Origin: Thiomicrorhabdus sp. zzn3
GTDB lineage: Bacteria > Pseudomonadota > Gammaproteobacteria > Thiomicrospirales > Thiomicrospiraceae
Assembly (NCBI RefSeq): GCF_029767755.1
Contig: NZ_JARUQS010000001.1
Coordinates: 310,001-374,000 of the forward strand
Direction: 5' to 3'
DNA length: 64,000 nucleotides
Part shown: positions 12,811 through 43,966 of the stretch, in pieces
How positions within the stretch are numbered: the first letter of the stretch is position 1
Layout: the number at the start of each line of letters is the position of its first letter
The notes under the pieces: model-generated
What the model was told of the DNA's origin: nothing
Seen by the model: the letters and a program-made list of their open reading frames with translations, nothing else
Database searches by the model: none
Program-made: the position numbers and the translations under genes

Positions 12811-13725
12811 ATGGAATTAAACCAAAAAAGATTGACCCACCTAAAGAAGCTTGAGGCGGAATCGGTTCACATTATTCGTGAAGTCATCGCCGAATTTGAA
12901 AACCCTGCCATGCTCTACAGCATCGGTAAGGATTCATCGGTGATGTTGCACTTGGCGCAAAAAGCGTTTTATCCTGCGCCGCCGCCGTTTCCTTTGGTGC
13001 ATGTAGATACGACCTGGAAGTTTCAGGAAATGATCCAATTTCGTGATCGCCGTGCTCAAGAGGTAGGGATGGATTTGTTGGTGCATATTAATCCTAAAGG
13101 GCCTGAAATGAATATCTCTCCCTTTGAGCACGGTTCCGCTATGCATACAGATATTATGAAAACGGAAGGGTTGCGTCAGGCTTTGGATAAGTATCAGTTT
13201 GATGCGGTTTTTGGTGGTGCGCGTCGTGATGAAGAAAAATCACGTGCTAAAGAGCGCATATACTCTTTCCGCGACAAGAACCATCGCTGGGATCCTAAAA
13301 ATCAGCGTCCGGAATTGTGGGATGTGTACAACGGAAAACACAAAAAAGGCGAATCCATTCGCGTGTTCCCGCTTTCGAACTGGACCGAGCTGGATATTTG
13401 GCAGTACATCTACCTCGAAAATATTGAGATTCCAAGCCTGTATTTTGCAAAAGAACGCCCGGTTGTGGAGTATGGCGGCACCAAGATTATGGTGGACGAT
13501 GAGCGCATGCCTCAAGAGTTGCGTGACACGGCCAAGATGGAGAGGGTGCGCTTCCGTACTTTGGGTTGTTATCCTTTGACCGGTGCGGTTGAATCGAGTG
13601 CGTCGACGTTACCTGAAATTATTCAAGAAATGCTTCTCACCAAAGTGTCGGAGCGTCAAGGTCGATTAATTGACCATGACGAAGCGGGCTCTATGGAGAA
13701 GAAAAAAATTGAAGGGTATTTCTAA
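12811..13725 (+). CDS. cysD: Sulfate adenylyltransferase subunit 2
   Basis: The small catalytic subunit of ATP sulfurylase, forming APS from sulfate and ATP with CysN. The 304-residue protein shows the PP-loop SIGKDSS (37-43) of the N-type ATP pyrophosphatase fold, and the family segments HVDTTWKF and [16 protein letters not shown] chose the ATG at 12811; the reading frame also opens at a TTG at 12793 inside the glmS stop region, which would add six atypical residues. The stop overlaps the cysN start (TAATG). Confidence 0.97.
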
Positions 13726-15164
13726 TGGCACATCAGTCGGACTTAATTGCAACGAATATTGAAGAGTATTTGCATCAGCATGAGAATAAAGAGCTGTTGC
13801 GTTTCATTACCTGCGGTAGCGTGGATGATGGTAAAAGCACGCTGATCGGTCGATTGCTGCATGACAGTAAAATGATTTTTGAAGATCAGCTGGCAGCCAT
13901 CAATAAGGACTCAAAAAAGCACGGTACGACCGGTGATGAAATTGACTTGGCGCTGTTGGTAGACGGCTTGCAGTCTGAGCGGGAGCAGGGGATTACCATT
14001 GATGTAGCCTACCGCTTTTTCTCGACCGACAAACGCAAATTCATCATTGCAGACACTCCGGGCCACGAACAGTATACGCGCAATATGGCAACCGGGGCTT
14101 CGACAGCGGATTTGGCAATCATTTTGATTGACGCTCGACACGGTGTTCAAACGCAAACACGCCGTCACTCGTTTATTACCAAACTATTGGGTCTTAAGCA
14201 TATTGTCGTCGCCATTAATAAGATGGACTTGGTCGAGTACAGTGAAGACCGCTTTAATGAAATTAAGGCAGAGTACACCGAATTTGCCAAAGGGCTGGAG
14301 ATCGAGAATCCAATCTTCGTTCCAATTTCAGCTTTGAAAGGTGACAACGTTGTGAATCCAAGTGAATCAATGGACTGGTATCAAGGCCAGCCTTTGATGA
14401 GCCTGCTGGACGATATTGAAATTGGCGATAACACGAATTTGGACAATTTCCGCTTCCCGGTTCAGTATGTCAATCGTCCGCACCTGAATTTCAGGGGCTA
14501 TTGCGGTACGATTGCGGCGGGAACGGTTTCTGTCGGTGATGCCGTGACGGTGTTGCCGTCGATGAAAACGTCAACAGTGAAGCAAATTCTTCAGCCGGCG
14601 ATTTCGGAAGAGAATATGGCGGTTGGAGAAGGTTTTGCACCGATGGCGGTCACTTTGACGCTGGAAGATGAGATTGATATCAGCCGAGGCGATATGTTGG
14701 TTAAATCGAATGATCTTCCAGAAATGTCGGACAGCTTGAAAGTGCATTTGGTGTGGATGAATGAACAAGCGATGGTGCCTGGTTCCGATTTTCTGATTAA
14801 GCGCGCTACCTCTTTGGTTTCCGGGCGTTTTGTCAGTATCGACCACCAGATTGATGTGAATACATTGGAGAAGCACTATCCGGAAAAATTGGAACTCAAC
14901 CAGATTGCGCAGTGTCAGTTGCAGCTTTCTCAAGTGATTGCATTTGACGATTACGAAACGGTTAAAGGATCGGGTAGTTTTATCGTGATCGATAAATACA
15001 CCCATGCGACCTTGGCGGCCGGCATGATTATCGGCAAAGGTCAGCAAGTTGATTCTGTACAAGGGCAGCGCGAGTATTCTGATTTCGAGAAGGACCTGAA
15101 TGCGTTGATCCGTAAGCACTATCCTGAATGGGGATGTAAGTCGATTTCTGATCTTTTGGGATAA
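13725..15164 (+). CDS. cysN: Sulfate adenylyltransferase subunit 1 (GTPase)
   Basis: The GTPase subunit that drives APS synthesis by CysD. The 479-residue protein carries G1 GSVDDGKS (31-38), G3 DTPGH (110-114) and G4 NKMDL, with EF-Tu-like beta-barrel domains after them. It is not fused to CysC, which is a separate gene downstream, so this is the stand-alone CysN form. Its start overlaps the cysD stop by one base, indicating coupled translation of the two subunits. Confidence 0.97.
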
Positions 15165-15167
15165 CCC

Positions 15168-16892
15168 ATGCTTGTATATGGCGTATTGGCTTCGATTATT
15201 GCTCTGCTGGCTTTGTTGGTATGGGGAAGAGTCCAACCATTTAAACTTTTCGCCGCGCTGCTGCTGATCTATTACACCTTTGACCTCATCCCTTTGCAGG
15301 TAATGTTGGGCAATTTTGTTAATCCGGCACTGATTACCTTGGTTTTTTTGCTGTTGGTAAGCAGTGTCTTGGAGAAAACGAATTTGTTTCAAGCGCTTGC
15401 GCGTTGGTTAGTCGCCTCAAGTGAGAGGGGAACCATGACGAGAATGGGGTCGATCGTAGGTTTTGGGTCGGCTTTTCTAAACAACACCGCAGTGGTGGCA
15501 TCGCTGATGTCGCTGATTGGCAAAACAAAGCGTTTCCCTTCTTCTAAACTGCTGATCCCTTTGTCTTATATCGCCATCTTTGGTGGGACTTTGACGCTGG
15601 TGGGAACTTCGACACACTTAATCATCAATAGCTTTGCGGTTCAGGCAGGCCTGCCCGAATTGGGCATTTTTGATTTTTTGTATGTGGGGTTTTTCATTCT
15701 GTTGTTCGGAACGCTTACCCTAATTGTTTTAGCGCCAAAGTTGTTGCCGAGTATCCAAACTGAAACAGAGCAGCGTTCTGAGTATTTGATTGAAACGAAG
15801 CTGGCGGCCGATTCGGAGTTAGTCGGGTTGTCAATCGAACAGGCCGGTTTGCGTCAATTAGAAGACTTGTATTTGGCGCAAGTGGTGTCTGGAAAAAATA
15901 AGATTGGGCCGGTTTCTCCGCAATATGTGCTTCAGGCTGGAGACCATCTGTTATTTGCGGGAGATATTAAAGCAGCGCCTAAGCTTTTACTGTTTTCGGG
16001 CTTGAGTTTTTTGGATGAAGCCCAGGGAACCAAACATAACCAGTTAGTCGAAGTGGTGGTTTCCCATCAGTCTCCAATGATCGGTTCGACGATTAAAAAA
16101 GCCAATTTTCGCAATAAATTCGATGCAGCAGTGGTGGCCATTCGTCGTGGCGGTCAAGAGTTGGAAGGGCGGTTGGCCCAAGTTATCTTGCAAGCCGGTG
16201 ATGCGTTGGTTTTGGTGACTGGACCGGATTTTGAGAAGCGTGAAAACTTGGATAAGAATTTTTATTTCTACACGCCGCTTGAAACCCAGCAGCATTTAAA
16301 CGTTAAACAGAGCACGTGGGCGGTGTTAGGTTTTGTTTCCGTCATCGGTCTGGCCGCTTTTGGGGTAATTCCTTTAATTAAAGGGCTTATGTTGCTGCTG
16401 GTGGCGTATCTGCTGTTCGGTTTGACCTCCATTCGGGAGTTGCGCCGCAAAGTGCCTTTTGAAATCGCCATGATTGTGGGCGCGGCACTCGGCATTGCCA
16501 AAGTGATGACCGATTCCGGAGCGGCGGATATGATTGCCGATTCCGTATTGTCCACATTCGGTTACTGGGGCGTTTTTGGCAGTTTTATCGGAGTCTATTT
16601 GCTGACTGTGCTGTTGACCGAACTAGTGACCAATAATGCGGCGGCGGCTTTGGGGTTTCCTATCGCCTTGGTGACCGCCGAGGCGCTGGGGGTCAGCCCT
16701 TGGCCATTTGTTATGGCGGTTGCCTACGGGGCGAGTGCCAGCTTCTTAACCCCTTATGGTTACCAAACCAACCTGATGGTGTACTCTCCTGGCGGTTACC
16801 GATTTTTAGATTATGTCAAAATGGGAATGCCCGTCAGTCTGGTCTATGGACTGACTGTACTGTCGTTGGTTCCCGTTTTTTTCCCTTTTTAG
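15168..16892 (+). CDS. SLC13/DASS-type anion permease with two RCK_C domains (probable sulfate importer)
   Basis: An inner-membrane carrier of 574 residues. N-terminal membrane segments (about 1-190) include the family motif around SAFLNNTAVVASLM. Two TrkA-C/RCK_C-like regulatory domains follow (about 205-370), and a second block of membrane segments (about 378-573) contains TELVTNNAAAALGFP. This split layout is typical of the YfbS/SLC13-like group. Its position 3 bases after cysN and 9-12 bases before cysC strongly suggests the substrate is sulfate, but this is contextual; related proteins carry dicarboxylates or other anions. No ABC-type sulfate transporter is present in the window. Confidence 0.85.
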   Translation: MLVYGVLASIIALLALLVWGRVQPFKLFAALLLIYYTFDLIPLQVMLGNFVNPALITLVFLLLVSSVLEKTNLFQALARWLVASSERGTMTRMGSIVGFGSAFLNNTAVVASLMSLIGKTKRFPSSKLLIPLSYIAIFGGTLTLVGTSTHLIINSFAVQAGLPELGIFDFLYVGFFILLFGTLTLIVLAPKLLPSIQTETEQRSEYLIETKLAADSELVGLSIEQAGLRQLEDLYLAQVVSGKNKIGPVSPQYVLQAGDHLLFAGDIKAAPKLLLFSGLSFLDEAQGTKHNQLVEVVVSHQSPMIGSTIKKANFRNKFDAAVVAIRRGGQELEGRLAQVILQAGDALVLVTGPDFEKRENLDKNFYFYTPLETQQHLNVKQSTWAVLGFVSVIGLAAFGVIPLIKGLMLLLVAYLLFGLTSIRELRRKVPFEIAMIVGAALGIAKVMTDSGAADMIADSVLSTFGYWGVFGSFIGVYLLTVLLTELVTNNAAAALGFPIALVTAEALGVSPWPFVMAVAYGASASFLTPYGYQTNLMVYSPGGYRFLDYVKMGMPVSLVYGLTVLSLVPVFFPF

Positions 16893-16904
16893 GATAGTCG
16901 TTTG

Positions 16905-17504
16905 ATGAGCAAGAATGAGAATATCGTTTGGCATGAACACCATGTCAAAAAAGAAGATCGAGCCAAACTCAAACAGCAAGCGCCCTGCATACTTTGGTTT
17001 ACAGGTTTAAGTGGCAGCGGTAAATCGACTGTCGCCAATGCCGTAGAGAGTTTGCTCTTTAAGATGGGAAAACATACGTTTCTATTGGATGGCGATAACG
17101 TTCGTCATGGATTGAATAAAGGGTTGTCTTTCTCGGAGGAAGACCGTATTGAAAACATCCGTCGTGTAGGTGAGGTTGCCAAGTTGTTTACGGATTCGGG
17201 ATTGATCGTATTAACGGCGTTTATTTCTCCGTTTCTGAAAGATCGGGAAATGGTTCGTCAGATGGGAGAGTCGGGTGAATTTATCGAGGTGTTTATCGAT
17301 ACGCCTTTGAATGTCTGCGAGCAGAGAGATCCAAAGGGGCTCTATAAAAAGGCTCGAGCAGGTGAAATAAAAGATTTTACGGGTATCGATTCACCATATG
17401 AGGCTCCAGTCAATCCTGAAATACACATTGTCAACGACGGGATTACGGTTGAGGAAGCCGCCGGTCAGGTAGTGGAGTACCTGAAGCGAAACAATTACAT
17501 ATAG
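16905..17504 (+). CDS. cysC: Adenylylsulfate kinase
   Basis: Phosphorylates APS to PAPS, the sulfuryl donor for sulfotransferases. The 199-residue protein has the P-loop GLSGSGKS (34-41) and the segment [11 protein letters not shown] that binds APS, followed by FISPF and [10 protein letters not shown]. The chosen start is ATG 16905; a TTG three bases earlier opens the frame but is not needed. With CysD/CysN it completes PAPS synthesis. No PAPS reductase gene (cysH) follows, so the PAPS appears meant for sulfation rather than cysteine synthesis. cysQ follows after 70 bases with no clear terminator. Confidence 0.97.
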
Positions 17505-17574
17505 TTTTTTATGGGGCTGATTTACAGTTCCTATATCAAGAATGAAAAATTTAATCAAAAATCAAGACTGAGAC

Positions 17575-18348
17575 ATGATCGAAAAAATTGATATCCAAGA
17601 TGTTGTGCAGCTGGCTAAAAAAGCCGGTGAAGCTGTTATGGACATTTATAGAAAAGACTTTGAGGTCGAGTACAAGGCCGATGAGTCGCCATTGACCTTA
17701 GCGGATAAAACGGCACATAACATTATTGAGGAAGGTTTGCGGGAGTTGGATCGTAAGAACAGTACCGAAATTCCGTTGCTTTCAGAAGAAGGTAAAAACA
17801 TTCGTTATGAGGAACGTAAAAACTGGGAATATTTCTGGTTGGTTGATCCGTTGGACGGAACCAAGGAGTTCGTCAAGAAGAACGATGAATTTACCGTCAA
17901 TATAGCACTGGTTTACAAAGATACTCCCATCTTGGGAGTAGTGTATGCACCAGCTTTGGATGTCTGTTACTGGGCTAAAAAAGGAGCAGGTGCTTTCAAA
18001 GACGGGTTGAAACTACCATTGAAAACGACTGAAGATAGACAGACTTATAAGATTGTTGCAAGCCGTTCGCATATGTCTGAAGAAACCAAAGCGTTTATTG
18101 ATTCGATTGAAACGGATATGCACAAAGAATTGATCTCTATCGGCAGTTCAATGAAGATTTGTCTCGTTGCTGAAGGGGAGGCGGATATTTATCCTAGATT
18201 AGGCCCAACTATGGAATGGGATACAGCTGCTGCGCATGCGATTGTAAATGAGTCCGGCCACAGTTTGAGGAAATATGAGCAAGGCGAATATTTCACCCAT
18301 AAATATAATAAAGAAAATTTGTTGAATGATTGGTTTGTTGTTGTATGA
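17575..18348 (+). CDS. cysQ: 3'(2'),5'-bisphosphate nucleotidase
   Basis: Hydrolyses PAP, the product left when sulfotransferases use PAPS, to AMP and phosphate, which prevents product inhibition. The 257-residue inositol-monophosphatase-fold protein shows metal-binding residues in LLSEEGK (Glu71, Glu72) and DPLDGTKEF (Asp91, Asp94), and the C-terminal WDTAAAHAI segment. Its stop overlaps the rfbB start (ATGA), tying the PAPS genes physically and translationally to the polysaccharide genes. Confidence 0.95.
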
Positions 18349-19439
18349 AAGTTAATTTAAATGAAAAAAGAAAAATATTAGTGACTGGTGGTGCCGGTTT
18401 TATAGGTTCTGCGGTCATTCGTCATTTGATCAATGATACCGATTGTTCAGTTGTGAATCTTGATAAATTGACTTATGCCGGTAATCTTGAATCCCTTGCA
18501 ACTGTCAGTGACAGTCCAAGGTATGCGTTTGAGCAGGTAGATATTTGCGATGCCGAAGAGTTGAAGCGAGTGTTTAGTATTCATAAACCCGATATAGTAA
18601 TGCATCTGGCAGCCGAGTCCCATGTCGACCGTTCAATTGATGGCCCTAATGAATTTATTCAAACCAATATTGTTGGTACTTATACCCTATTGGAGCAGGT
18701 TAGATCCTATTGGAACAGCCTTGAGGGCGAGAAACAAACAAGTTTTAGGTTCCATCATATTTCAACGGATGAAGTTTATGGCGATTTGCCTCATCCGGAT
18801 GAGGTGTCCGGCAAACTTCCTTTGTTTACTGAGACGACCCCCTATGCACCAAGCTCACCCTATAGTGCGAGTAAGGCAGGTTCCGATCACTTGGTTAGAG
18901 CGTGGCAGAAAACATATGGTCTGCCTACCTTAGTTACTAATTGCTCAAACAATTATGGGCCTTACCATTTTCCCGAGAAACTTATCCCCTTGGTGATTTT
19001 AAATGCACTTGAAGGAAAGCCATTACCGGTTTATGGGAAAGGCAATCAGATTCGTGATTGGCTTTATGTAGAAGATCATGCTAGAGCCCTGGTATTGGTC
19101 GCAACTCAGGGAAGTATTGGGGAAACTTATAACATCGGTGGACACAACGAAAAACAAAATATCGAAGTTGTGAAAACAATTTGTTCAATTCTTGATGAAG
19201 TAAAGCCTAAAGGAACTTCATATGCTGAGCAGATTACATTTGTAGCGGATCGTCCAGGACATGATATGCGTTACGCTATAGATGCGGCTAAGATTCAACG
19301 GGATTTGAATTGGTCACCTAGGGAGACCTTTGAAAGTGGTATTAAAAAGACAGTTCAGTGGTATCTGGATAATCAAGATTGGTGTCAGCATGTGCAGGAC
19401 GGCAGTTATAAAAGAGAAAGATTAGGAAGTAAAATATGA
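18345..19439 (+). CDS. rfbB: dTDP-glucose 4,6-dehydratase
   Basis: Converts dTDP-glucose to dTDP-4-keto-6-deoxyglucose. The 364-residue extended short-chain dehydrogenase has the NAD-binding loop TGGAGFIG (14-21), the STDEVYGDL segment and the [10 protein letters not shown] motif (YxxxK). The ATG at 18345, overlapping the cysQ stop as ATGA, is preferred over an upstream in-frame TTG. It is followed by rfbA with another ATGA overlap. No rfbC or rfbD is in the locus, so the product is probably used by the WecE-type aminotransferase at 24482 rather than turned into rhamnose here. Confidence 0.96.
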
Positions 19440-20302
19440 AGGGAATTATATTAGCTGGCGGTTCGGGAACACGACTTTATCCAATAACAAAAGGGGTGTC
19501 TAAACAGTTATTGCCTGTGTATGACAAACCGATGATTTATTATCCGCTGTCAGTTCTTATGTTGGCTGGGATTAAAGATGTCTTAATCATTACTACACCA
19601 GAAGACCAAGCCGGCTTTCAAAGAGTGTTGGGCGATGGTTCTGAGTTTGGAGTTAACCTGAGCTATGCCATTCAGCCTAGTCCAGATGGTCTCGCACAAG
19701 CATTTATTATCGGCGAAGAATTTATTGGTGATGATAGTGTGTGTTTGGTTTTGGGGGACAATATTTTCTGGGGGCAGGGCTTTACTCCTATTTTGAAACG
19801 AGCTGCTAGTCGTGAAACAGGAGCTTCCGTATTTGGTTACCAGGTTAAAGATCCTGAGCGCTTCGGTGTGGTGGCATTTGATGAGAATCAGAAGGCTGTC
19901 AGTATTGAAGAAAAACCGGAAGAGCCAAAATCGAATTATGCGGTAACAGGTTTATATTTTTATGATAACGATGTTGTTGAAATGGCTAAACAGGTTAAGC
20001 CATCTCATCGTGGAGAGCTTGAAATTACGACAATCAATCAAATGTACCTGGAGCGAGGAAGTTTGAATGTTGAACTGCTTGGACGTGGTTTTGCATGGCT
20101 TGATACTGGTACGCATGAGAGTTTGTTGGAAGCGGCAATGTTTGTCGAAACTATTGAAAAAAGACAAGGGTATAAAATTGCTTGTTTAGAGGAGATTGCT
20201 TGGCGTAATAAATGGCTAAGTAATGAACAGGTTATGCAGGTTGGCCAGGCACTATCTAAAAATAGTTACGGGCAATACTTGTTGGAATTGATAAAAGATT
20301 AA
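19436..20302 (+). CDS. rfbA: Glucose-1-phosphate thymidylyltransferase
   Basis: Makes dTDP-glucose from dTTP and glucose-1-phosphate. The 288-residue protein shows the nucleotidyltransferase signature [11 protein letters not shown] (8-18), the [12 protein letters not shown] segment and [11 protein letters not shown]. Its length is normal for RmlA. The start overlaps the rfbB stop by 4 bases. It supplies the substrate for RfbB and so for the dTDP-4-amino sugar branch. A 74-base gap with an inverted repeat separates it from the AT-rich genes that follow. Confidence 0.96.
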
Positions 20303-20323
20303 CTAAATCAGTTGGTTGTATGT

Positions 20324-20362
20324 ATTTTAAAGTAGCGCTTGTTGTAACGGGGTTGCTTTAAA
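20324..20362. repeat. Inverted repeat between rfbA and the AT-rich gene block
   Basis: TTTTAAAG (20324-20331) and CTTTAAAA (20355-20362) form a perfect 8-bp inverted repeat. The stem can be extended by about four pairs including G-U wobbles, with a loop of about 15 bases. No long U-run follows, so terminator activity is doubtful. It lies where base composition shifts to AT-rich. Confidence 0.35.
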
Positions 20363-20376
20363 AAGTAGGTGGGTAA

Positions 20377-21306
20377 GTGAAGTTATCTGTTGTTGGTACA
20401 TTGTATTATTCAGAAAAATATATTGAAGAGTTTTGTTCTAGAGTATCTCGTGAATCACGCAGTTTATTTGGTGATGATTACGAGATTATTCTGGTAAACG
20501 ATGGGTCACCAGATAATAGTTTGAATATTGCTAAAGAAGCGGCGAAAAAAGATTGTCATATTAAAGTGGTCGACTTAAGCAAGAACTTTGGCCACTATAA
20601 GGCAATTATGACAGGTTTGGAGTTTGCTGAGGGTGACCTTGTTTTTCTTCTTGATACTGATCTTGAAGAGCAACCCGAGTGGCTAAGTGTCTTTTATGAA
20701 AGGATGCGTGAAACGGCTTCTGATGTCATTTATGGTGTCCAAGGAGAAAGAAAGGGCGGGCTCTTTGAGAAAGTTAGCGGTAAATTTTTCTATAAACTGT
20801 TTAACTTTTTATCTAAGGTCAAAATTCCAGAAAATTCTGTCACTGCAAGGTTAATGACAAGTTCATACAAAAAGTCATTGTTACAATTCAAGGAGCAGGA
20901 GCTTTTTTTGTTTGGGGTATTTGAACTTGCCGGTTTTAAACAGCTTCCCTATACGGTTAAGAAATTACAGGCTTCACCTACAACCTATAGTTTATCCCGT
21001 AAATTCAGTATTTTTTTTAACGGATTAACGTCATTTAGCGCTTACCCATTGAAGATGATCTTTTTGTTCGGGTTTTCGATTTCACTGATCTCTTTTTTAT
21101 ATTTTTTGTTTATTTTGTTTAATTGGTTTATGTATGAAAAACCAATTCAAGGATGGACATCGATAATTTTATCAATATGGTTTTTTGGCGGCATAATTAC
21201 TCTATCGATAGGCGTGATTGGTATTTATTTGAGTAAGATTTTTATTGAAGTAAAAAATAGGCCTTACACGATTGTAAAAAGTTTTTATCGTGTTGATGAA
21301 AAATAA
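20377..21306 (+). CDS. GT2 polyprenyl-phosphate glycosyltransferase (GtrB/DPM1-like)
   Basis: A membrane-bound GT-A enzyme of 309 residues. The N-terminal domain has DYEIILVNDGSPDNS and the metal-binding LLDTDLEEQPEW (DxD). Two C-terminal membrane helices lie at about residues 222-247 and 262-290. This layout is typical of enzymes that load a sugar on undecaprenyl phosphate for later periplasmic transfer. The start is GTG, with AGGTGGG just upstream. The AT-rich codon use differs from that of rfbA. The large membrane protein at 22211 could be its periplasmic partner; no GtrA-type flippase is nearby. Family assignment is firm; the donor sugar is unknown. Confidence 0.85.
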   Translation: MKLSVVGTLYYSEKYIEEFCSRVSRESRSLFGDDYEIILVNDGSPDNSLNIAKEAAKKDCHIKVVDLSKNFGHYKAIMTGLEFAEGDLVFLLDTDLEEQPEWLSVFYERMRETASDVIYGVQGERKGGLFEKVSGKFFYKLFNFLSKVKIPENSVTARLMTSSYKKSLLQFKEQELFLFGVFELAGFKQLPYTVKKLQASPTTYSLSRKFSIFFNGLTSFSAYPLKMIFLFGFSISLISFLYFLFILFNWFMYEKPIQGWTSIILSIWFFGGIITLSIGVIGIYLSKIFIEVKNRPYTIVKSFYRVDEK

Positions 21307-21315
21307 AAGAAATTT

Positions 21316-22224
21316 ATGAAATATTGTCATTCTTGCCAAACGTCCTATACCGCCAAAGATTTTATTTGCCCTAGTTGTGAAAAAGAAACCAATGTGCTGG
21401 ATGGTGTTTATGTTCATTCCCCGCAATTAGCTCAAGAAAATGACGGATTTGATTCAAGTTTATTTGAAAAGTTAATAATAGAAGAGAGTAACAATTTCTG
21501 GTTCAAGGCAAGAAATGAAATCATTGTCTGGTTCTTAAATCATTATGTTGGCGAAGGCAAAAAAAACTCAGGCTCTCTTGGCAAATATTTAGAGGTAGGC
21601 TGTGGTTCCGGATTTGTTCTTCAAGCAGTAATTGATAACTTTAAAAACAGTGAACTTTATGGTTCGGAAATATTTTTAAACGGACTTCTTTTCGCCAGAG
21701 CTAGAACTCAGGATGCAGTTTTTATGCAGATGGATGCTAGAGAAATTCCGTATGTAAAAGAGTTTAATGTCATTGGTGCTTACGATGTATTAGAGCATAT
21801 TGAGGAAGATAGTAGAGTTATTAAAGAAATATACAATGCCTTACAAGACAATGGCATTTTTATTAGTACAGTGCCACAGCATAAGCGCTTATGGAGTTTT
21901 GCTGATGATATTGCTTGCCATAAAAGAAGGTATGAACCAGGAGAATTAGAAGCTAAATTGCGGGAAAGTGGCTTCAAAATTGTGAGATCTACATCTTTTG
22001 TGACTTTACTGTTACCTTTTATGTACATCTCCAGGATTAAGAGAAATAAAGACCAGTCTATAAAATCCAAAGATTTTTTACGAATTCCTAAGATATTAAA
22101 TAAGATATTTTCTACTGTTATGAAAATCGAACTTTTATTTATAAAGCTTGGATTCAATTTTCCTTTCGGAGGTTCTAGACTAGTTATTGCGATAAAAATG
22201 AGCGACAAAAATGAAGTTTCATAG
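21316..22224 (+). CDS. Class I SAM-dependent methyltransferase with N-terminal zinc ribbon
   Basis: A 302-residue protein. Residues about 4-22 hold two CxxC pairs (YCHSC and FICPSC), a zinc-ribbon-like knuckle. SAM motif I is YLEVGCGSGF near residues 93-102, and an AYDVLEHIEED segment matches the post-motif of glycan methyltransferases. The substrate is unknown; because it sits between a GtrB-like enzyme and a GtrC-like membrane protein, a lipid-linked sugar or glycan end is plausible. It overlaps the next gene by 14 bases. The C-terminal end is hydrophobic and may associate with the membrane. Confidence 0.75.
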   Translation: MKYCHSCQTSYTAKDFICPSCEKETNVLDGVYVHSPQLAQENDGFDSSLFEKLIIEESNNFWFKARNEIIVWFLNHYVGEGKKNSGSLGKYLEVGCGSGFVLQAVIDNFKNSELYGSEIFLNGLLFARARTQDAVFMQMDAREIPYVKEFNVIGAYDVLEHIEEDSRVIKEIYNALQDNGIFISTVPQHKRLWSFADDIACHKRRYEPGELEAKLRESGFKIVRSTSFVTLLLPFMYISRIKRNKDQSIKSKDFLRIPKILNKIFSTVMKIELLFIKLGFNFPFGGSRLVIAIKMSDKNEVS

Positions 22225-23815
22225 AATGGGAAATGTTGCCCGTGTTTATTCTTTTGATAGGCTAATCAAATCTATATTAATATTTCTGGTTTCTTTTATA
22301 TTTGTTGCTTTTTTGCTCAATTATAGCTTTGTATATTGGGATGGATGGGTTGTTCATGATCACGACTACAATTCAATTCTGTTTCTATTTAAACAGTTAG
22401 GTGGAGTGGCCGGATATTATTATGCATCCATCCATTCAGTGCTGGGAAATATTGGTAATGGAGTTTTTTCATACCGGTTGTTGATGGTTTTATTGTTAAT
22501 AACGACGAGTTTCTTTATATATAAGATTTGTTATTTGTCTTCTATATTTAACAAAAATGAATCGCTATATATCTCTACTTTATTCTTATTTTTTCCGTTC
22601 TTAAACTCAAAAATATCAATAATTGTCGTTCCGTATTATTTATCGACTTTTCTTTTTTTTCTGGGTTTCTATCTTGTTGTTAACTCAAGTTATGAAAAGT
22701 CCTTGATTAGAAGGATATTAGTCAATTTAATTTTCTTCTTAAGTTTTTTCACGAACTCTTATATCAGTTTTTATTTATTGGTATTGATTTATCTTTTTTT
22801 CCAAAACCTTAGGATACGTTCAAACGAAAACATCCTTTTTACTATCAGAGATTTTATTTTCAGGTACTTCGACTTTTTAAGCCTGCCAATACTGTTCATT
22901 CTTTTCAAGTTTACTATGATGGTCCCTTCGGGGTTTTATGAAGGCTATAATGATTTGGGCCATATGCAGATAGGTTCAGGTATTAATGCTCTGATTCAGT
23001 CAATGGAAGCTTTGTATCTTGGCATTATTCATTTGGATGGATTTGAATTTTATATTTACGCGCTATCGTTACTGTTGGCAATCAATCTAATTCTTTCTGC
23101 ACGAGAAATCTATTTATCACGTCAAATTAAGGTCAGTGCTTTTTTTAGGAATTCGGGTTTGATTCTGTTGGGTGCCGGCTTAATTGCATTGGCACTTTTT
23201 CCCTATGCTTTTGTTGGGAAAATTCCCGTTGTAAGTGGCTGGAATGATCGGCACTTTTTATTAGTTCCTCTCGGCTTTGCTATTGTTATTCTTTTTATGG
23301 CAAAAGTGATCTACTGGGGGCGGGAAACAATCGTTTCATTGGCAATTTTAGGGATTGTTGGTCTCTTTTCGTATAATATTCTTTTGTCGATATATTCATG
23401 TTTGCGGGACGGTATATATCAGGAATCTATAATGGAAGAATTTAAATCAAATAAAGTTTTTTCCGCGAACAATACTTTTCTTATTTTAAATAAGTCTGAT
23501 ACCCGGATTTTTTGTCACGATCGTCATGTTCACTATTATGAATGGAATGCCTTATTAAGACAGGTATATCCTGAGGCAAATAAATCAATAAATAGTTTCG
23601 AAACCCAATTTAAAAAAACAATGGAAACTCGGTTTCTGGAAACATTCAATGCAAAAAACTATGTTTATAGCGAGCCTACACGACTCTGTTTTAATACTAG
23701 AAAAATCGGCCTTAATGATATTTTTTCAATGTATTTTGATCAAAATTTTAATTACAACTATGTTCAGTTTTCTCTCCCTGAGATAGGTGCTGGTAATCAA
23801 GAAGTCTGTAAATAA
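22211..23815 (+). CDS. Polytopic membrane protein, candidate GtrC-like glycosyltransferase
   Basis: A 534-residue inner-membrane protein with about ten or more hydrophobic segments between residues 15 and 400 and a soluble C-terminal part of about 130 residues. An early segment VYWDGWVVHDHD (about 36-49) puts acidic residues in the first periplasmic loop, as in GT-C enzymes. It is very AT-rich. No specific family was recognised; GtrC-type O-antigen glycosyltransferase is the best guess because a GtrB-like gene lies two genes upstream. Other options are an O-antigen polymerase or another GT-C protein. Confidence 0.5.
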   Translation: MKFHRMGNVARVYSFDRLIKSILIFLVSFIFVAFLLNYSFVYWDGWVVHDHDYNSILFLFKQLGGVAGYYYASIHSVLGNIGNGVFSYRLLMVLLLITTSFFIYKICYLSSIFNKNESLYISTLFLFFPFLNSKISIIVVPYYLSTFLFFLGFYLVVNSSYEKSLIRRILVNLIFFLSFFTNSYISFYLLVLIYLFFQNLRIRSNENILFTIRDFIFRYFDFLSLPILFILFKFTMMVPSGFYEGYNDLGHMQIGSGINALIQSMEALYLGIIHLDGFEFYIYALSLLLAINLILSAREIYLSRQIKVSAFFRNSGLILLGAGLIALALFPYAFVGKIPVVSGWNDRHFLLVPLGFAIVILFMAKVIYWGRETIVSLAILGIVGLFSYNILLSIYSCLRDGIYQESIMEEFKSNKVFSANNTFLILNKSDTRIFCHDRHVHYYEWNALLRQVYPEANKSINSFETQFKKTMETRFLETFNAKNYVYSEPTRLCFNTRKIGLNDIFSMYFDQNFNYNYVQFSLPEIGAGNQEVCK

Positions 23816-24475: not shown

Positions 24476-24481
24476 AATACA

Positions 24482-29104: not shown

Positions 29105-29143
29105 AGATCATAATTTATTAATGTAGTGGGGCAAGGTTTGATT

Positions 29144-31263: not shown

Positions 31264-31271
31264 GGATTGAA

Positions 31272-32402: not shown

Positions 32403-32404
32403 TA

Positions 32405-38439: not shown

Positions 38440-38501
38440 ATAAAGTGTATTTGTATCCCAATTAATTCAACAAAAATATTTTACTAGGCCATTTATTTAT
38501 C

Positions 38502-39806
38502 ATGCTAGAGAACTACTCACCGTTTAATCGGTTTGGTTTTGTGAAGGGTAAGTGTTCTGAGTATTTCTTGTTGATATTGTTGACGGCATTTTTTATTTCT
38601 ATTGCAGGCCTTTTGAGCTGGGTTAACAGCTTGCTTGTAAGTGTCGTTATTCTCAGCGGAATTGTGCATTGGCATCAAAAATCTAGACCTATTCCTCAAA
38701 GTGTTAAGCATTATTATGCGATAAGCGTTGTCTTTTTTTTATATCTCTGTTTTACAGTTTTTATGTATGAACCATTGGTTTTTTTTGAAAACCGTTTTGA
38801 ACCATTTCGATATCTAGTTCTTTGGTGGCTTGTTTTTTATTTTTTTCTAAACTGGTTTGATGATGAGGCTTTGCTTTTTAAGGCCCTTGTCGTTTCTGGA
38901 TTCTTCCTTTTTGTTTGGGTTGTATTGGTCCTGATTGAGCAGCCACATCGTAGTCGGGGGTTACTTGAAGATCCTATTCAAAGAGGCAACTTAGCGATGT
39001 TGTTGGGCATAATGTCTCTTGTCGCTTTTTTTTACTTTAAAAGAGGGTGGAGATTTTTAGCTTTAGTTGCATTTTTATCGGGTGTTGTTCTTAGTATTCT
39101 TTCGGAGTCTCGTGGAGGCTGGTTGGCTTTGATCATTTCCGTTATCACTATTTTGCTGGTTTTGAGAAGACTGGATGACAAAGATTTCAAGTTAGGGGTT
39201 GGCTTGATTCTTATTTTTGGCTCGATTTTTCTATTGTTTCTTGAACAAACCCCGGTTCCAAGTCGACTTGAAAGAGCATGGTTGGATATATCCACTTATT
39301 TTTCGGGTGAGAATCTGAATACATCTTTGGGTGCACGGTTTGAGATGTGGAAAGTGGCTTTATTGGCTTTTATCGAAAAGCCTGTATTTGGTTGGGGGTT
39401 TGATTCTTTTAACGCTGTTTACAATCACTACTTTGAGGCACATGAAGCGATTAAACCTTCTAAAGCAAGTGGGTGGGGACAACCGCACAATGATTATTTG
39501 CAATTTCTAGTGGAAACCGGTGTGATCGGTTTTGGTTTGTTAATGATTTTTCTTTTGTATCCTCTCAAGGTGTATTTTAATGCACTGATATTAGGGTTAA
39601 AGCAGAATCAACGTAGACTCGTATTTGTTGCCTTATTGGGCATTGTGATGTTGGAATGCTTGTTGGAATTTATGTTAAGTGATCGTAACTTTACATTTCG
39701 ACACACTTTGTACTTTTTTGTAACAGTAAATGTGATGTGTCTGATGTTTATAGCTCGGATTAAAAACGAGAGTTCGGAGGCAAGACTTGAAAAGACTGAT
39801 ATTTGA
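38502..39806 (+). CDS. Wzy_C-family membrane protein (O-antigen ligase or polymerase)
   Basis: A 434-residue inner-membrane protein with about 11-12 hydrophobic segments and one large periplasmic loop (about residues 255-340). The loop contains GARFEMWKVALLAFIEKPVFGWGFDSF and GWGQPHNDYLQFLVETG; the HNDYLQ segment is the hallmark of WaaL/Wzy_C proteins. It either ligates the finished glycan to lipid A core or a protein, or polymerises it. A 62-base AT-rich gap with no clear promoter precedes it. Its last 20 bases overlap the next gene. Confidence 0.85.
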   Translation: MLENYSPFNRFGFVKGKCSEYFLLILLTAFFISIAGLLSWVNSLLVSVVILSGIVHWHQKSRPIPQSVKHYYAISVVFFLYLCFTVFMYEPLVFFENRFEPFRYLVLWWLVFYFFLNWFDDEALLFKALVVSGFFLFVWVVLVLIEQPHRSRGLLEDPIQRGNLAMLLGIMSLVAFFYFKRGWRFLALVAFLSGVVLSILSESRGGWLALIISVITILLVLRRLDDKDFKLGVGLILIFGSIFLLFLEQTPVPSRLERAWLDISTYFSGENLNTSLGARFEMWKVALLAFIEKPVFGWGFDSFNAVYNHYFEAHEAIKPSKASGWGQPHNDYLQFLVETGVIGFGLLMIFLLYPLKVYFNALILGLKQNQRRLVFVALLGIVMLECLLEFMLSDRNFTFRHTLYFFVTVNVMCLMFIARIKNESSEARLEKTDI

Positions 39807-40164
39807 TCTGGATGATACGTTGTGCACAACTTATAAGGGAGATTATCGTAATTCCGAACCTCGTTGGGAAGTAATTGAAAAGCTTAAACATTATCACGCT
39901 CAGGGATTCGAAATTGTGATTTCTACCAGTCGAAATGTGCGAACCTATGAGGGTAATGTTGGGAAGATCAATGCTAATACTTTGCCGTTAGTTATTGAGT
40001 GGCTTGAACGACATGACATTCCTTATGATGAGATTTACATGGCTAAACCTTGGTGTGGGTTTGATGGGTTTTATATTGACGATAAAGCGATCAGGCCTTC
40101 GGAGTTTCTAGAAAAAGATTATGAAGAGTTAAAAGCATTAATTGATGGTGAGAAATGTTTTTAA
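39787..40164 (+). CDS. Small HAD-family phosphatase
   Basis: A 125-residue HAD hydrolase without a large cap domain. Motif I is FDLDDTLC (Asp7, Asp9), motif II is in IVISTSRN, and a late KPWCGFDGFYIDDKAI segment supplies the Lys and Asp pair. Proteins of this size occur in capsule and O-antigen loci, where they dephosphorylate small sugar or polyol phosphates. The start is TTG, well supported by GGAGG (39776-39780) six bases upstream. The next gene overlaps its end by ten bases, so it probably acts with that kinase/nucleotidyltransferase-like protein and the nucleotidyltransferase at 41705. Confidence 0.8.
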   Translation: MKRLIFDLDDTLCTTYKGDYRNSEPRWEVIEKLKHYHAQGFEIVISTSRNVRTYEGNVGKINANTLPLVIEWLERHDIPYDEIYMAKPWCGFDGFYIDDKAIRPSEFLEKDYEELKALIDGEKCF

Positions 40165-41708
40165 TTCCATCCGCTGCATATATAGATCCAGAATTTCAGG
40201 CTGAACTAGGAATGTTGCCCCCGTCTTTGTTGCCCATCGCTAACCAGCGCCTGATTACCTTACAAGTTGGTTCCATAAGAAAATTTTCCGATGAACCTAT
40301 CTACCTTTCGTTGCCGAAAGGTTTTCTTTTAGATGAAAAAGATAAGAATTTATTGCTCAAGCTAAGGGTTCAAATAATATGGGTAGATGCTAGCTTGTCT
40401 CTAGGTGAATCCATTAATCAGGCGTTGACCCAAATTGTTGAAGACGGAAAAGTTTCTATTCTTTATGGGGATACCTTACTAAAGGAGTTGCCCGACAAAA
40501 CGAATTGTGTTGCTATTGCCGAAACGCATGAGAATTACAGCTGGTATGTAGATTCTGAATGTGAAGGAAAACAATTTGTCTGGGCCGGGTACTTCAGCTT
40601 TGACTGCAAGAATGACCTGCTGGAACAGTTAAAAATACAAGGGTTCGATTTTTTGGGATTCGTGCAAAAGTCTCTTGATGAAAAGAAGCTTGTAAGGGAA
40701 AAGGTCTCAAGTTGGTTTGATGCAGGCCACATTAATACTTATTTCAATACAAGAAGCTGTTTAACGTCCGAACGCTGCTTTAATTCAATCAGTATCAATA
40801 AAAATGTCGTGACTAAAAAAGGTTTACACGATGACAAGATCGCTGCTGAGGCATACTGGTTTCAGACTGTTCCTTCAGGAATTAAGCGCCTGACGCCTAA
40901 TTTGATCGAATCGGGAATCGATGCTGATGGCCGAAGTTTTTATAGTATTGAGTATCTTTATTATATGCCGCTTAACGAACTGGCCGTGCATGGCAGGTTG
41001 CCTATTGAGGCGTGGGTTGGAATTTTTGATGCTTGTCTGGAATATTTTGAAGAGGCGAAACAGACACAGGTACCCAGCGAGCTTTTGGGGTATTTGTCCA
41101 TTGAGAGAGAAACCCTATTTAAGCAAAAATCATATCTCAGGGTAAAGGCGTTTGAAAAAAACTCGAGAATTCGCTTTGATCAGCCAGTTTTGTTTAATGA
41201 TCAACCGCTTCCAGCGATTAATCAAATTGTCGATGAATTAATCGGGTTAGCTTTAAAGATTCCTGCCCAATTTTCTGTAATCCACGGTGATTTTTGTTTC
41301 AGCAATATTATCTACGACAGCAGATCGAGGTCGGTTAAGTTGATCGATCCGAGAGGAATTATGTCGAACGGGAGCCAAAGCATCTATGGTGACTTAGTTT
41401 ATGACTATGCAAAGTTTATGCATTCACTTGTGGGCTATTACGACTTTATTATTGCAGGGAGTTACGAATTAAACATTGAAGGACAAAATATCAAGTTTAA
41501 GATAAATGTCCGTGATGATATGGACTCACTATTAAGTTTGATTTTACACAAAGAAATCGTGGAGGGGATTAGTGCTGAATCTGTACTGCCACTCACTATT
41601 TTGCTTTTTTTCTCGATGTTGCCATTACATTCCGATTCGGAAGAAAGGCAATATGCGTTGTTAGCTAATGCATTAAGGTTATACTGCGAATATAAAGGAA
41701 TTAAATGA
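40155..41708 (+). CDS. Two-domain protein: degenerate nucleotidyltransferase-like N-part plus APH-like kinase
   Basis: A 517-residue cytoplasmic protein. The N-terminal ~200 residues look like a sugar nucleotidyltransferase (PPSLLPIANQRLITLQV resembles the substrate loop and first helix) but lack the GxGxR signature, so this part is probably inactive or binds only ligand. The C-terminal ~300 residues carry a phosphotransferase catalytic core, HGDFCFSN (His377, Asp379, Asn384), and the metal-binding LIDPRG (Asp398), as in choline/aminoglycoside kinases. The following gene encodes an intact nucleotidyltransferase and overlaps by 4 bases. Together they could phosphorylate and then nucleotide-activate a small alcohol or sugar for glycan decoration. 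Substrate unknown. Confidence 0.65.
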   Translation: MFLIPSAAYIDPEFQAELGMLPPSLLPIANQRLITLQVGSIRKFSDEPIYLSLPKGFLLDEKDKNLLLKLRVQIIWVDASLSLGESINQALTQIVEDGKVSILYGDTLLKELPDKTNCVAIAETHENYSWYVDSECEGKQFVWAGYFSFDCKNDLLEQLKIQGFDFLGFVQKSLDEKKLVREKVSSWFDAGHINTYFNTRSCLTSERCFNSISINKNVVTKKGLHDDKIAAEAYWFQTVPSGIKRLTPNLIESGIDADGRSFYSIEYLYYMPLNELAVHGRLPIEAWVGIFDACLEYFEEAKQTQVPSELLGYLSIERETLFKQKSYLRVKAFEKNSRIRFDQPVLFNDQPLPAINQIVDELIGLALKIPAQFSVIHGDFCFSNIIYDSRSRSVKLIDPRGIMSNGSQSIYGDLVYDYAKFMHSLVGYYDFIIAGSYELNIEGQNIKFKINVRDDMDSLLSLILHKEIVEGISAESVLPLTILLFFSMLPLHSDSEERQYALLANALRLYCEYKGIK

Positions 41709-42415
41709 TTGTGATACCAATGGCGGGGCTCAGTTCTCGTTTTTATAAGGCTGGTTATACTGTCCCCAAATATGAACTGCCTTTAGGGGATAGAACGGTG
41801 TTTGATCATGCGGTATTGAGTTTTAAACGTTACTTTGAAGATGAGATGTTTTGCTTTGTGACGAGAAAGCATCTCGATGCGAAAAATTTCATAGAAAATT
41901 CTTTGAGTGATTTGGGGGTGAAGTCATTTAAGGTTGTTGAACTTGAGTCAGAAACATTAGGTCAAGCAGATACCGTATATCAGGTAGTCAAAGATATGGC
42001 GGATGAGTCACTGATTATTTTTAACATAGATACTTTCATTCAAGATTATATAAAGCCGAGCTGGCTCGGTGATTGTGATGGTTATCTTGAGGTTTTTCAC
42101 GAAGAGGGAGAACACTGGTCTTTTGCGGTGCCAGGGCCTGAAAACACTGTTTTAAAAACAGCTGAAAAAGAACGTTTGTCAGATTTATGCTCAGATGGGC
42201 TTTACTACTTTAAAAGCAGTAAGGAGTATACCAATTTAGTGAGAGAAGCTATTGACTCTAAGTCGTTTGTCAAAGGCGAGTTATACATTGCCCCTCTGTA
42301 TAACAGGCTGATTTCAAAAGGAAAAATAGTGAAGTATGAGCTGGTTAAGCGAGACAGAATTACGCTTTGTGGAACACCGGAAGAGTACAAGAGAGTAAAG
42401 TCCATTCTGGGTTAA
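41705..42415 (+). CDS. Small sugar/alcohol-phosphate nucleotidyltransferase
   Basis: A 236-residue GT-A-like nucleotidyltransferase. The N-terminal signature AGLSSRFYKAGYTVPKYELPL has the Arg and Lys that bind NTP and phosphate. FNIDTFIQDY provides a metal-binding Asp near residue 102, and GELYIAPLYN is the late acidic segment. Relatives activate phosphocholine, heptose phosphates or hexose phosphates. Its tight overlap with the kinase-like gene (ATGA) and the HAD phosphatase two genes upstream suggest one dedicated activation pathway. The nucleotide (CTP, UTP or dTTP) cannot be told. Confidence 0.8.
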   Translation: MIVIPMAGLSSRFYKAGYTVPKYELPLGDRTVFDHAVLSFKRYFEDEMFCFVTRKHLDAKNFIENSLSDLGVKSFKVVELESETLGQADTVYQVVKDMADESLIIFNIDTFIQDYIKPSWLGDCDGYLEVFHEEGEHWSFAVPGPENTVLKTAEKERLSDLCSDGLYYFKSSKEYTNLVREAIDSKSFVKGELYIAPLYNRLISKGKIVKYELVKRDRITLCGTPEEYKRVKSILG

Positions 42416-42425
42416 GTAGTTATTT

Positions 42426-43217
42426 ATGAGAGTAGCGTTGTGTATTTCAGGGCAAATGCGTTCTTTTGAAGAATGTTATCCAAGCCAGTATCAAAACTTG
42501 ATTGAGATCTTCCAACCCGATGTTTTCATTCATACATGGTCGGACTTAGGGCAATCCATTAGAGAAAAAGTCGCTTCTGACGTGATTACTCCGGAAAGTT
42601 TGGATAATAAATTATCAAAGTTGTATGCACCAAAAAGAATGGTTATTGAAGATTATCATGCTTCTTATTGTGATCTCTTTCATGGTGTCAAGGTCCCCGA
42701 AGTTTTGAAAGAGGCTGAGCCCGTGAGTTATAAGGGGGCGTTGCCGATGTTTTATAAAATCTGGGCTTGTAACCAGCTCTGTTTAGAATATGCATTGGAA
42801 GTTGGTATAAAGTACGATTTGGTGATCCGTCTTAGACCTGATCTCTATATTGATGAACCTCTATCCGAATTTAAGCGTTTGGTTGGTAGAGAAAATGAAC
42901 TGCTGTTAGGACATTTAACAGATGTTTTTGCAAGTGATCGCATCGCAGCCGGTTCTCCAGAGGCAATGAGCTACTATTGTTGTGTGTGGGAAAGGTTGGA
43001 GCAGTATTGGCAAAATCCTTTGCAGGATGGCAATAAAAATAACCACTTAGTCGGTGAACGTTTAATGCGTTGGCATTTACGTTGGTCAAAACTTGAGTAC
43101 CGTTCAATGAGAGCGCTTACTCACATCAAACGATATGATGAATCCATTTCGGCAATACGAAAAAAGTTGTTTAAAAAGAAGGTTAAGCGGTTTTTTAGGG
43201 AGTTAGTGGGCGCATGA
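42426..43217 (+). CDS. Putative glycosyltransferase-like protein
   Basis: A 263-residue protein with no signal peptide. It opens with RVALCISGQMRSFEECY and has LVIRLRPDLYIDEP near residues 136-150, where RxRPD is a recurring motif of uncharacterised glycosyltransferase-like proteins in surface-glycan loci. The C-terminus is strongly basic (IRKKLFKKKVKRFFREL), suggesting membrane association. The function is not established; sugar or phospho-alcohol transfer using the product of the upstream nucleotidyltransferase is one possibility. It overlaps the following sulfotransferase by four bases. Confidence 0.5.
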   Translation: MRVALCISGQMRSFEECYPSQYQNLIEIFQPDVFIHTWSDLGQSIREKVASDVITPESLDNKLSKLYAPKRMVIEDYHASYCDLFHGVKVPEVLKEAEPVSYKGALPMFYKIWACNQLCLEYALEVGIKYDLVIRLRPDLYIDEPLSEFKRLVGRENELLLGHLTDVFASDRIAAGSPEAMSYYCCVWERLEQYWQNPLQDGNKNNHLVGERLMRWHLRWSKLEYRSMRALTHIKRYDESISAIRKKLFKKKVKRFFRELVGA

Positions 43218-43966
43218 ACTTTCAGTATATGAAGTGTTTGATTGGCTATGCATTGAAAAAGCCTATAAAACTATGGCGTTTCATTAAGTTTGGGTATGTT
43301 TGCGGAACTGAAGTCTGTGTCAATGAACAATATAAGGTCGCTTATGTTGTTAACCCGAAGGTTGCTTCAACATCGATTTTGGAGATGCTTTCTGGAGTAA
43401 ATAGAGAACAGCTTCAAGAGCAGGGTGTGGATATCTCAGAGATTAGAAAGAGACTGCAAACCACACCAGTTACTTCATATAACCAATTGCGTGAGCTACA
43501 GGAGCGGGGCTATCTAGTCTTTACCTTTGTTCGAAACCCCTATGAAAGAGCGATTTCTTTTTATAAAAATAAGTTTCGCGATGAGGGAGGGCTTTTTTTA
43601 AAACCGGTGCTTTTCGCTGAACGTTGTGGCTTTGAAAAATGCCGTGGTTTTGAGGATGTTATCAAGCAAGTTATTCAAACACCTTCAAGCATCGGTGATG
43701 CTCACTTTATTCCTCAAACGGATGTTCTATACGGCAAGACTTCCGACTTTGATTTCGATTTTATCGGGCGTCTAGAAAGGTTTGAGCAAGATTATCAAGT
43801 TCTCAGCGGAAAGGTGGGTGGGTTGCCTGAAGTTAAAAAACGCAATACGACCGTTGAATCAAAGTCAATCGATGTGGATGCATGGTTTTCACCGGCCTTA
43901 AAGGCGGAATTTTATAAGAGATTTAATGAAGATTTTAATCGCTTTAATTACCCTGATGATTGTTAA
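43214..43966 (+). CDS. Sulfotransferase family 2-like protein
   Basis: A 250-residue protein resembling carbohydrate sulfotransferases of the HNK-1/chondroitin type. The 5'-phosphosulfate loop is NPKVASTS (47-54), and the 3'-phosphate site is VFTFVRNPYERAISFYKNKF near residues 102-121. It is unrelated in detail to the sulfotransferase at 33606, so two different positions or sugars may be sulfated. It is the last gene of the assembly block before the YjbH-like exporter gene. PAPS supply and PAP removal are encoded upstream (cysD-cysQ). Confidence 0.8.
   Translation: MNFQYMKCLIGYALKKPIKLWRFIKFGYVCGTEVCVNEQYKVAYVVNPKVASTSILEMLSGVNREQLQEQGVDISEIRKRLQTTPVTSYNQLRELQERGYLVFTFVRNPYERAISFYKNKFRDEGGLFLKPVLFAERCGFEKCRGFEDVIKQVIQTPSSIGDAHFIPQTDVLYGKTSDFDFDFIGRLERFEQDYQVLSGKVGGLPEVKKRNTTVESKSIDVDAWFSPALKAEFYKRFNEDFNRFNYPDDC

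Follow-up and report, generated by a model that had tools for sequence, protein, structure and literature searches.

We analysed a 64-kb stretch of the Thiomicrorhabdus sp. zzn3 genome (the window, that is, the whole stretch; G000:C1:310001-374000, where G000 is the host genome), in which five genes for sulfate uptake, activation and by-product removal, cysD-cysN-permease-cysC-cysQ (the module), run into a surface-sugar locus that also encodes two sulfotransferases. Gene content, co-occurrence in the family and phylogeny point, with good confidence on our part, to a module dedicated to the supply of 3'-phosphoadenosine 5'-phosphosulfate (PAPS) and the clearance of 3'-phosphoadenosine 5'-phosphate (PAP) for a sulfated surface polysaccharide made by a Wzx/Wzy locus. 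The host genome has 2,366,806 bases in 6 contigs, is 99.99% complete and contains two SoxY genes, consistent with a Sox-type sulfur oxidiser. The host is a Thiomicrorhabdus-type sulfur oxidiser, and oxidation of thiosulfate to sulfate by Sox has been described in Thiomicrorhabdus (PMC10608990).

Genes of the locus

The genes from glmS to rmlA, and the two sulfotransferases, are as follows.

10938-12800, +, glmS, glucosamine-6-phosphate synthase (amino-sugar supply), first gene of the run; PF01380 and PF13522 over cut-off
12811-13725, +, cysD, ATP sulfurylase small subunit, ATG start at 12811; TIGR02039 and NF009214 over cut-off
13725-15164, +, cysN, ATP sulfurylase GTPase subunit, P-loop GSVDDGKST; TIGR02034 and NF003478 over cut-off
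15168-16892, +, SLC13/DASS-type anion permease with two TrkA_C stretches; PF03600 and PF02080 over cut-off
16902-17504, +, cysC, kinase of adenosine 5'-phosphosulfate (APS), intact P-loop GLSGSGKST; PF01583 2e-72, TIGR00455 over cut-off
17575-18348, +, cysQ, 3'(2'),5'-bisphosphate nucleotidase (PAP disposal), DPLDGT and WDTA motifs; TIGR01331 over cut-off
18345-19439, +, rfbB, dTDP-glucose 4,6-dehydratase, start overlapping the cysQ stop; TIGR01181 over cut-off
19436-20302, +, rmlA/rfbA, glucose-1-phosphate thymidylyltransferase; TIGR01207 over cut-off
33606-34466, +, sulfotransferase 1, Sulfotransfer_3/1 type; PF13469 6e-25, PF00685 1e-7
43214-43966, +, sulfotransferase 2, Sulfotransfer_2 type, motifs NPKVASTS and VRNPYERAISF; PF03567 4e-20

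A first-pass annotation of this DNA, made from the letters alone, had described the module, its overlap with rfbB and two different sulfotransferases within one plus-strand locus. These observations were borne out. CysD, CysN, CysC and CysQ all score above curated cut-offs; the cysQ TGA lies at 18346-18348 with an in-frame rfbB ATG at 18345, forming a genuine ATGA overlap; and the sulfotransferases belong to different families, both over Pfam cut-offs. All annotated genes from glmS to 43966 read from the plus strand, are spaced -20 to +74 bases apart and may share a transcript; a promoter and terminator scan of 10400-22300 gave no excess over shuffled sequences. The SLC13-type permease is probably a sulfate importer, judging by its gene context; the DASS model TIGR00785 matches it only below its cut-off. 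No Rfam family reached its gathering score within the 64-kb window.

Sulfotransferase 1 is the sole PF13469 gene found in the host genome. Its gene starts 7 bases after a glycosyltransferase gene and overlaps pglC by 17 bases, and the gene for sulfotransferase 2 overlaps a DUF7796 gene by 4 bases. Motif-like stretches occur in both proteins, and both stretches of sulfotransferase 2 are largely kept in a homologue with 38% identity from Methyloprofundus (L107:10855-11622). A plasmid carrier was not found: none of 332 matching plasmid records reached 80% cover of the module, no plasmid holds most of it, and the three plasmid matches of sulfotransferase 2 are distant (24-27% identity).

The remaining genes of the locus serve glycan assembly and export.

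20377-22224, +, GT2 glycosyltransferase and methyltransferase; PF00535, PF08241
22211-23815, +, 534-residue hydrophobic protein; no Pfam match
23837-25612, +, hexapeptide acetyltransferase and WecE-type aminotransferase (dTDP-4-amino sugar); PF00132, with TIGR02379 and NF008687 over cut-off
25609-26877, +, Wzx flippase; PF01943
26871-28130, +, glycosyltransferase group 1; PF00534
28127-29104, +, 325-residue hydrophobic protein; no Pfam match
29126-32402, +, FnlA/FnlB(WbcJ)/FnlC-type genes; FnlA below its cut-off, WbcJ NF047837 and WecB TIGR00236 over cut-off
32387-33598, +, glycosyltransferase, group 1/GT4 type; PF00534
34450-38162, +, PglC-type phosphoglycosyl transferase, DegT aminotransferase and CapD/PglF-type 4,6-dehydratase (initiating amino sugar); PF02397, PF01041, PF02719
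38502-39806, +, Wzy polymerase / O-antigen ligase family; PF04932 4e-24
39787-43217, +, EcbF/BcbF capsule phosphatase, kinase-like protein, nucleotidyltransferase-like protein and DUF7796 protein; TIGR01689 over cut-off, PF25072
44000-51072, +, export side: YjbH, a 319-residue protein without a family, Wza-type Poly_export/SLBB and Wzz-type chain-length protein; PF06082, PF02563, PF10531, PF02706

The gene families suggest that the locus sugars include a dTDP-4-amino-4,6-dideoxyhexose, UDP-N-acetyl-L-fucosamine (probably the product of the genes at 29126-32402) and a bacillosamine-type initiating sugar. An ATP sulfurylase and an APS kinase thus share the locus with sulfotransferases and with sugar-nucleotide, transferase, flippase, polymerase and export genes, the content looked for in a sulfated-polysaccharide cluster.

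Three further features of the region are recorded here as observations in their own right. The phosphatase, kinase-like and nucleotidyltransferase-like genes at 39787-42415 have overlapping ends; the kinase-like protein at 40155 (517 residues) has no family match and was read as a kinase by eye, and we would guess that the unit may add a group to the polymer through a phosphate link. G+C is 0.51-0.54 at window 1-10000, 0.46-0.47 over the cys genes and 0.33-0.47, mostly below 0.43, over the glycan genes (18001-44000), where such low values are usual for exchanged surface-sugar loci. Just past the export genes lies an ATP-dependent DNA ligase gene (52795-53727; NF006592 over cut-off).

Predicted role and association with sulfotransferases

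We propose that the permease imports sulfate, that CysDN would convert it to APS and that CysC would convert APS to PAPS. The two sulfotransferases would then transfer sulfate, in the cytoplasm, to putative acceptor sugars of the repeat unit during its assembly, CysQ would clear the inhibitory PAP, and the repeat unit would be flipped, polymerized and exported by the products of the Wzx/Wzy and Wza/Wzz/YjbH genes. The predicted outcome is that the surface sugar coat of the host is very probably decorated with sulfate. The first-pass annotation had arrived at this role, in which sulfate is activated and transferred and PAP is removed to make a sulfated amino-sugar polysaccharide; the role gains support, as a prediction, from the content of the host genome, the co-occurrence of CysC with sulfotransferases in the family, the separate clade of the module CysDN and the APS-reductase type of CysH in relatives.

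The profiles PF01507, PF13469, PF03567, PF01583 and PF00685 were run over 95 genomes, 60 of them family members (G000-G059) and 35 from elsewhere in the class; CysC was counted as present above 150 bits in the PF01583 search of the family, and CysH was separated from CysD among the PF01507 matches by match length and score. CysC was present in 12 of the 60 family genomes; in a thirteenth, G011, the gene is truncated at the end of a contig. Of these 13 genomes, 11 have a sulfotransferase above the cut-off, against 0 of the 47 without CysC (Fisher 2e-10, kinship ignored). Taking G011 as CysC-negative gives 10/12 versus 1/48 (9e-9); leaving out the window's genome gives 10/12 versus 0/47 (1e-9), or 10/12 versus 1/47 (1e-8) if a sub-threshold match in G052 is counted. 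CysH, present in 12 genomes, was a weaker predictor (5/12 versus 6/48, P 0.03). The association was seen within the window's genus, in which we placed G013 and G015 (9/10 with CysC, 0/22 without), and in the other genera of the family (2/3 and 0/25).

The first-pass annotation had also proposed a search for the same gene set in related genomes, and the module with a nearby sulfotransferase does recur in the family. Of the family modules, nine are flanked on one side or the other by about 10 kb or more of sequence, and seven of these nine lie within 25 kb of a sulfotransferase gene (linked: G000, G013, G015, G021, G028, G007 and G047; unlinked: G014 and G050), or six of eight without the window's own, which has a P of about 5e-9 under random placement; the modules of G001, G011, G022 and G040, on contigs below 7 kb, lie outside this count. 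The arrangements vary. The sulfotransferase gene sits between module cysD and cysN in G007 (L045:17876-18721), between cysQ and a Wzy gene in G013, and on the 4.8-kb CysC contig in G005, which also holds a Wzx-like gene. G015 and G021 share with the window the order cysQ, rfbB (78%), rmlA (85-88%), and the genes beyond match at 61% or less, or not at all. A glmS gene also lies 5' of cysD in G013, G015 and G021, with two to four genes between. The sulfotransferase link is thus firm in the window's family.

Outside the family, the clearest case is Methyloprofundus (L107), in which the five module genes are followed after cysQ by homologues of sulfotransferase 2 (38-39%) and Wzy (38%), and three profile-called sulfotransferase genes (118, 26 and 54 bits) lie 5' of cysD. 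A scan of the class with the permease alignment (369 genomes) returned 9 genomes above 530 bits, followed by a gap to 447. At least one of cysD, cysN and cysC was close to the permease in 7 of the 8 high-scoring genomes besides the host, and CysH in 0 of 8; in 12 lower-scoring permease regions taken as controls, CysC was found in 1/12 and CysD, CysN and sulfotransferase in 0/12. Among named genomes, a related permease adjoins cysDN in, for example, Thiomicrorhabdus heinhorstiae HH1, Thiomicrorhabdus sp. Milos-T2 and Hydrogenovibrio sp. SC-1. Three Campylobacterota loci (L103, L104 and L106) hold the module set beside sugar genes.

Two of these Campylobacterota loci also carry an unusual gene: CysC (N-terminal) and CysD (C-terminal) are joined in one frame at L103:6994-8526 (Sulfurospirillum sp. 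UBA2217) and L106:1107-2696 (a Campylobacterales metagenome-assembled genome), inside cysQ/cysN/SLC13 modules. CysN-CysC fusions, of which rhizobial NodQ is one, are the familiar kind. What looked like an SLC13-CysC fusion in L138 was discarded, as its two halves match in different frames.

Several results weigh against the proposed role. The CysC-sulfotransferase counts are uncorrected for relatedness. In G001 (79% complete) and G050 (100%), CysC is present and the searches for three sulfotransferase families found none, the sole sulfotransferase found in G014 lies at least 1 Mb from its module, and the sub-threshold match in G052 stands in a genome without CysC. G022 (85% complete) has a module-type cysD-cysN fragment, with no intact CysC or sulfotransferase found; as a further exception, G005 (82% complete) has CysC and no CysD match. 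The predicted models of the two sulfotransferases are weak, with a predicted local distance difference test (pLDDT) score of 38 for sulfotransferase 1 and 60 for sulfotransferase 2 (AlphaFold2), and a fold search with the latter gave no match under E 0.29, the top 12 all being sulfotransferases. Sulfotransferase profiles found nothing in the fetched stretches of the eight high-scoring genomes (12-20 kb, two reaching a contig end) or in the three Campylobacterota loci; outside the family the link is seen in Methyloprofundus and mostly not seen elsewhere. The Methyloprofundus contig itself comes from a metagenome-assembled genome, in which a binning error is possible.

We considered whether PAPS might instead be used to sulfate a peptide, a lipid or a small molecule, the position within the locus being merely convenient. 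The PF13469 and PF00685 families act on many different acceptors, and a PDB sequence search with sulfotransferase 1 gave protein-tyrosine sulfotransferase 1 as its best matches, which are weak (E 0.002 to 0.004); the same search with sulfotransferase 2 returned one irrelevant match only. Both genes are, however, packed tightly among sugar-nucleotide, glycosyltransferase and polymer genes, and a sulfotransferase gene of G013 lies between cysQ and a Wzy gene, so we regard a non-glycan acceptor as unlikely. We consider it very unlikely that PAPS acts mainly as a signal controlling the glycan genes, as has been proposed for Vibrio vulnificus and for curli of Escherichia coli: deletion of cysD or cysC in V. 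vulnificus is reported to block calcium-induced brp expression and rugosity (PMC6113621), but two sulfotransferases in the same locus point to direct use of PAPS, as does the finding that CysC and sulfotransferases tend to occur in the same family genomes. PAPS could have a signalling role in addition.

Sulfate enzymes of the host and two sets of CysDN

The module CysDN is the only sulfate-activation set found in the host genome. PF01507, the profile for CysH, matched only the module CysD across the whole genome; PF01077, for sirohaem sulfite reductases (CysI and Dsr), had 0 matches, the control being positive in 11 of 14 genomes; PF01747, for Sat, had 0 matches; and the best AprA match reached 29.6 bits against a cut-off of 641.75. 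The first-pass annotation had stated that cysH, cysI and cysJ are absent, which stands genome-wide for the first two, while CysJ had no search of its own. With no CysH, sulfite reductase, Sat or AprA found, the known reductive and oxidative uses of the module CysDN are missing.

Relatives carry two paralogous CysDN sets. Genes of set A are close to those of the window (cysD 86-89% identical, cysN 73-78%, SLC13 54-71%) and are followed by cysC and cysQ, with no cysH in the neighbourhood stretches read. Set B, found in cysteine operons (G031, G055, G013, G047 and G040), is more distant (cysD 65-79%, cysN 48-58%, SLC13 33-34%), and no intact CysC lies beside it in the stretches read; Pfam profiles identify CysJ, CysI, CysG and CysH in the G055 operon, CysJ, CysI and CysH in G047, and CysI and CysH in G040. 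Both sets occur in G013, G040 and G047, and in fragments in G022.

In a tree of CysD plus CysN (30 rows, 774 columns; the partial rows G001 and both copies of G022 dropped; among the 12 other rows, L005 and G061 are the same gene), the 11 set-A rows, the window's included, and Methyloprofundus lie on one side of a branch with 100/99 support, while the 7 rows of set B stand apart in two other lineages. By this phylogeny the module CysDN is a lineage separate from that of the relatives' cysteine operons. The motifs CC..RK and GCEPC, which we take to be the signature of iron-sulfur APS reductases, are present in all seven CysH proteins read (G013, G016, G022, G031, G040, G047 and G055) among the 12 genomes with CysH, and the CysH of these operons appears to be of the APS-reductase type. 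Reduction of APS without PAPS has been described for Hydrogenovibrio thermophilus S5 (PMC5733100).

APS-kinase-like matches of 69-92 bits in G006, G016, G022 and G028 were not counted as CysC. In the G006 and G016 proteins the P-loop is replaced by GLPLSGKKV; for G022 and G028 the score was the sole criterion. The G006 and G016 proteins are encoded after cysN in some cysteine operons (L174:4333-5058 in G006; L175:8552-8970 in G016, cut by a contig end) and combine a hydrophobic N-terminus, DUF2061-like by eye, with the APS-kinase-like domain.

These results bear on ordinary assimilatory sulfate activation for cysteine, placed by chance beside a glycan locus. The cysD-cysN-SLC13 adjacency is also the layout of the set-B cysteine operons. 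Yet CysH and a CysI-type reductase were not found in a 99.99% complete genome, the family cysteine operons read carry a different CysDN lineage, and their CysH is of a type that would need neither CysC nor CysQ; cysteine synthesis by the known enzymes was therefore rejected and is highly improbable. Reversal of CysDN in the service of sulfur oxidation (APS to ATP and sulfate), for which a Sox-type host might speak, is barely credible and was likewise rejected, with neither AprA over its cut-off nor Sat in the genome and no place for CysC or CysQ in that route.

The Methyloprofundus CysDN pairs with the G050 copy (support 100/98), which, barring a binning error, suggests transfer between lineages, and the module seems to have moved between them. 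More broadly, cysD-cysN-SLC13-cysC-cysQ may be a horizontally moving cassette that evolved apart from cysteine synthesis and through which chemolithoautotrophic sulfur oxidisers reuse sulfate, a waste product of their energy metabolism, for sulfation of surface polysaccharide. Sulfate activation in the family would then have two branches, one delivering APS for cysteine (other CysDN lineages) and one delivering PAPS for glycan sulfation (the module lineage). We hold the case for this wider scheme to be evenly balanced.

With no reductive use of PAPS found, the host genome offers a clean natural case, in which PAPS should go to sulfotransferases (or signalling). CysC, CysQ and the permease can be tested there as sulfation-only genes, cysteine auxotrophy not being a side effect. 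The combination of module-type CysDN and intact CysC, with no CysH adjoining, is a possible sequence marker for makers of sulfated polysaccharides among chemolithoautotrophs, and the findings suggest that the full gene set for PAPS supply can be handed from one lineage to another as a unit.

Comparison with known systems

We found no paper on sulfated polysaccharides in Thiomicrorhabdus and allied genera, although a literature search is not proof of absence; Thiomicrorhabdus and sulfotransferases are mentioned together in a clam study and a groundwater survey (PMC10601118, PMC11497496). The first-pass remark that sulfated surface glycans are rarely described in such compact bacterial loci no longer holds: Cobetia marina (PMC11766843) and a Vibrio (PMC11641403) are published examples of capsule clusters that carry PAPS genes together with sulfotransferases.

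The C. marina KMM 1449 cluster, whose capsule is reported to be sulfated, is described as combining sulfotransferase and polysaccharide genes with cysD, cysN/C, cysQ and a sulfate permease (PMC11766843). It encodes an ATP-binding cassette (ABC) transporter (kps) capsule with 3-deoxy-D-manno-octulosonic acid (Kdo) priming and a fused cysN/C (PMC11766843), whereas the window has Wzx/Wzy, separate cysN and cysC, an SLC13 permease within the run and a host genome in which no sulfate reductase was found. The capsule cluster of Vibrio sp. KMM 8419, also reported to be sulfated, similarly combines cysC, cysN and cysD with sulfotransferases, and its authors regard PAPS genes and sulfotransferases in one cluster as a hallmark of sulfated polysaccharides (PMC11641403). 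Its cys genes are second copies, its export is of the ABC type and cysQ is not mentioned in the main text of that paper, while the window's set is the sole one found in its genome.

More distant parallels exist. Rhizobial NodPQ with NodH, and the nodPQ-dependent sulfated surface polysaccharides of Mesorhizobium loti, likewise pair an activation set with a sulfotransferase for sulfation, but rhizobia are described as having CysDN besides NodPQ (PMC6192434). In Xanthomonas oryzae, ATP sulfurylase and APS kinase genes (RaxP/RaxQ) supply the sulfotransferase RaxST, whose proposed acceptor is a secreted leader-peptide substrate and not a polysaccharide (PMC4216712). The Synechan (xss) cluster of Synechocystis, for an extracellular polysaccharide, likewise encodes two sulfotransferases, which belong to distinct subfamilies; its host is a cyanobacterium, and the main text of PMC8205485 mentions neither PAPS nor cysC. 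The window's locus therefore belongs to an already known kind, that of the C. marina and Vibrio capsule clusters and rhizobial NodPQ; what is new is that the set is the sole sulfate-activation set of a sulfur oxidiser, and that the APS and PAPS branches appear to be divided between paralogues.

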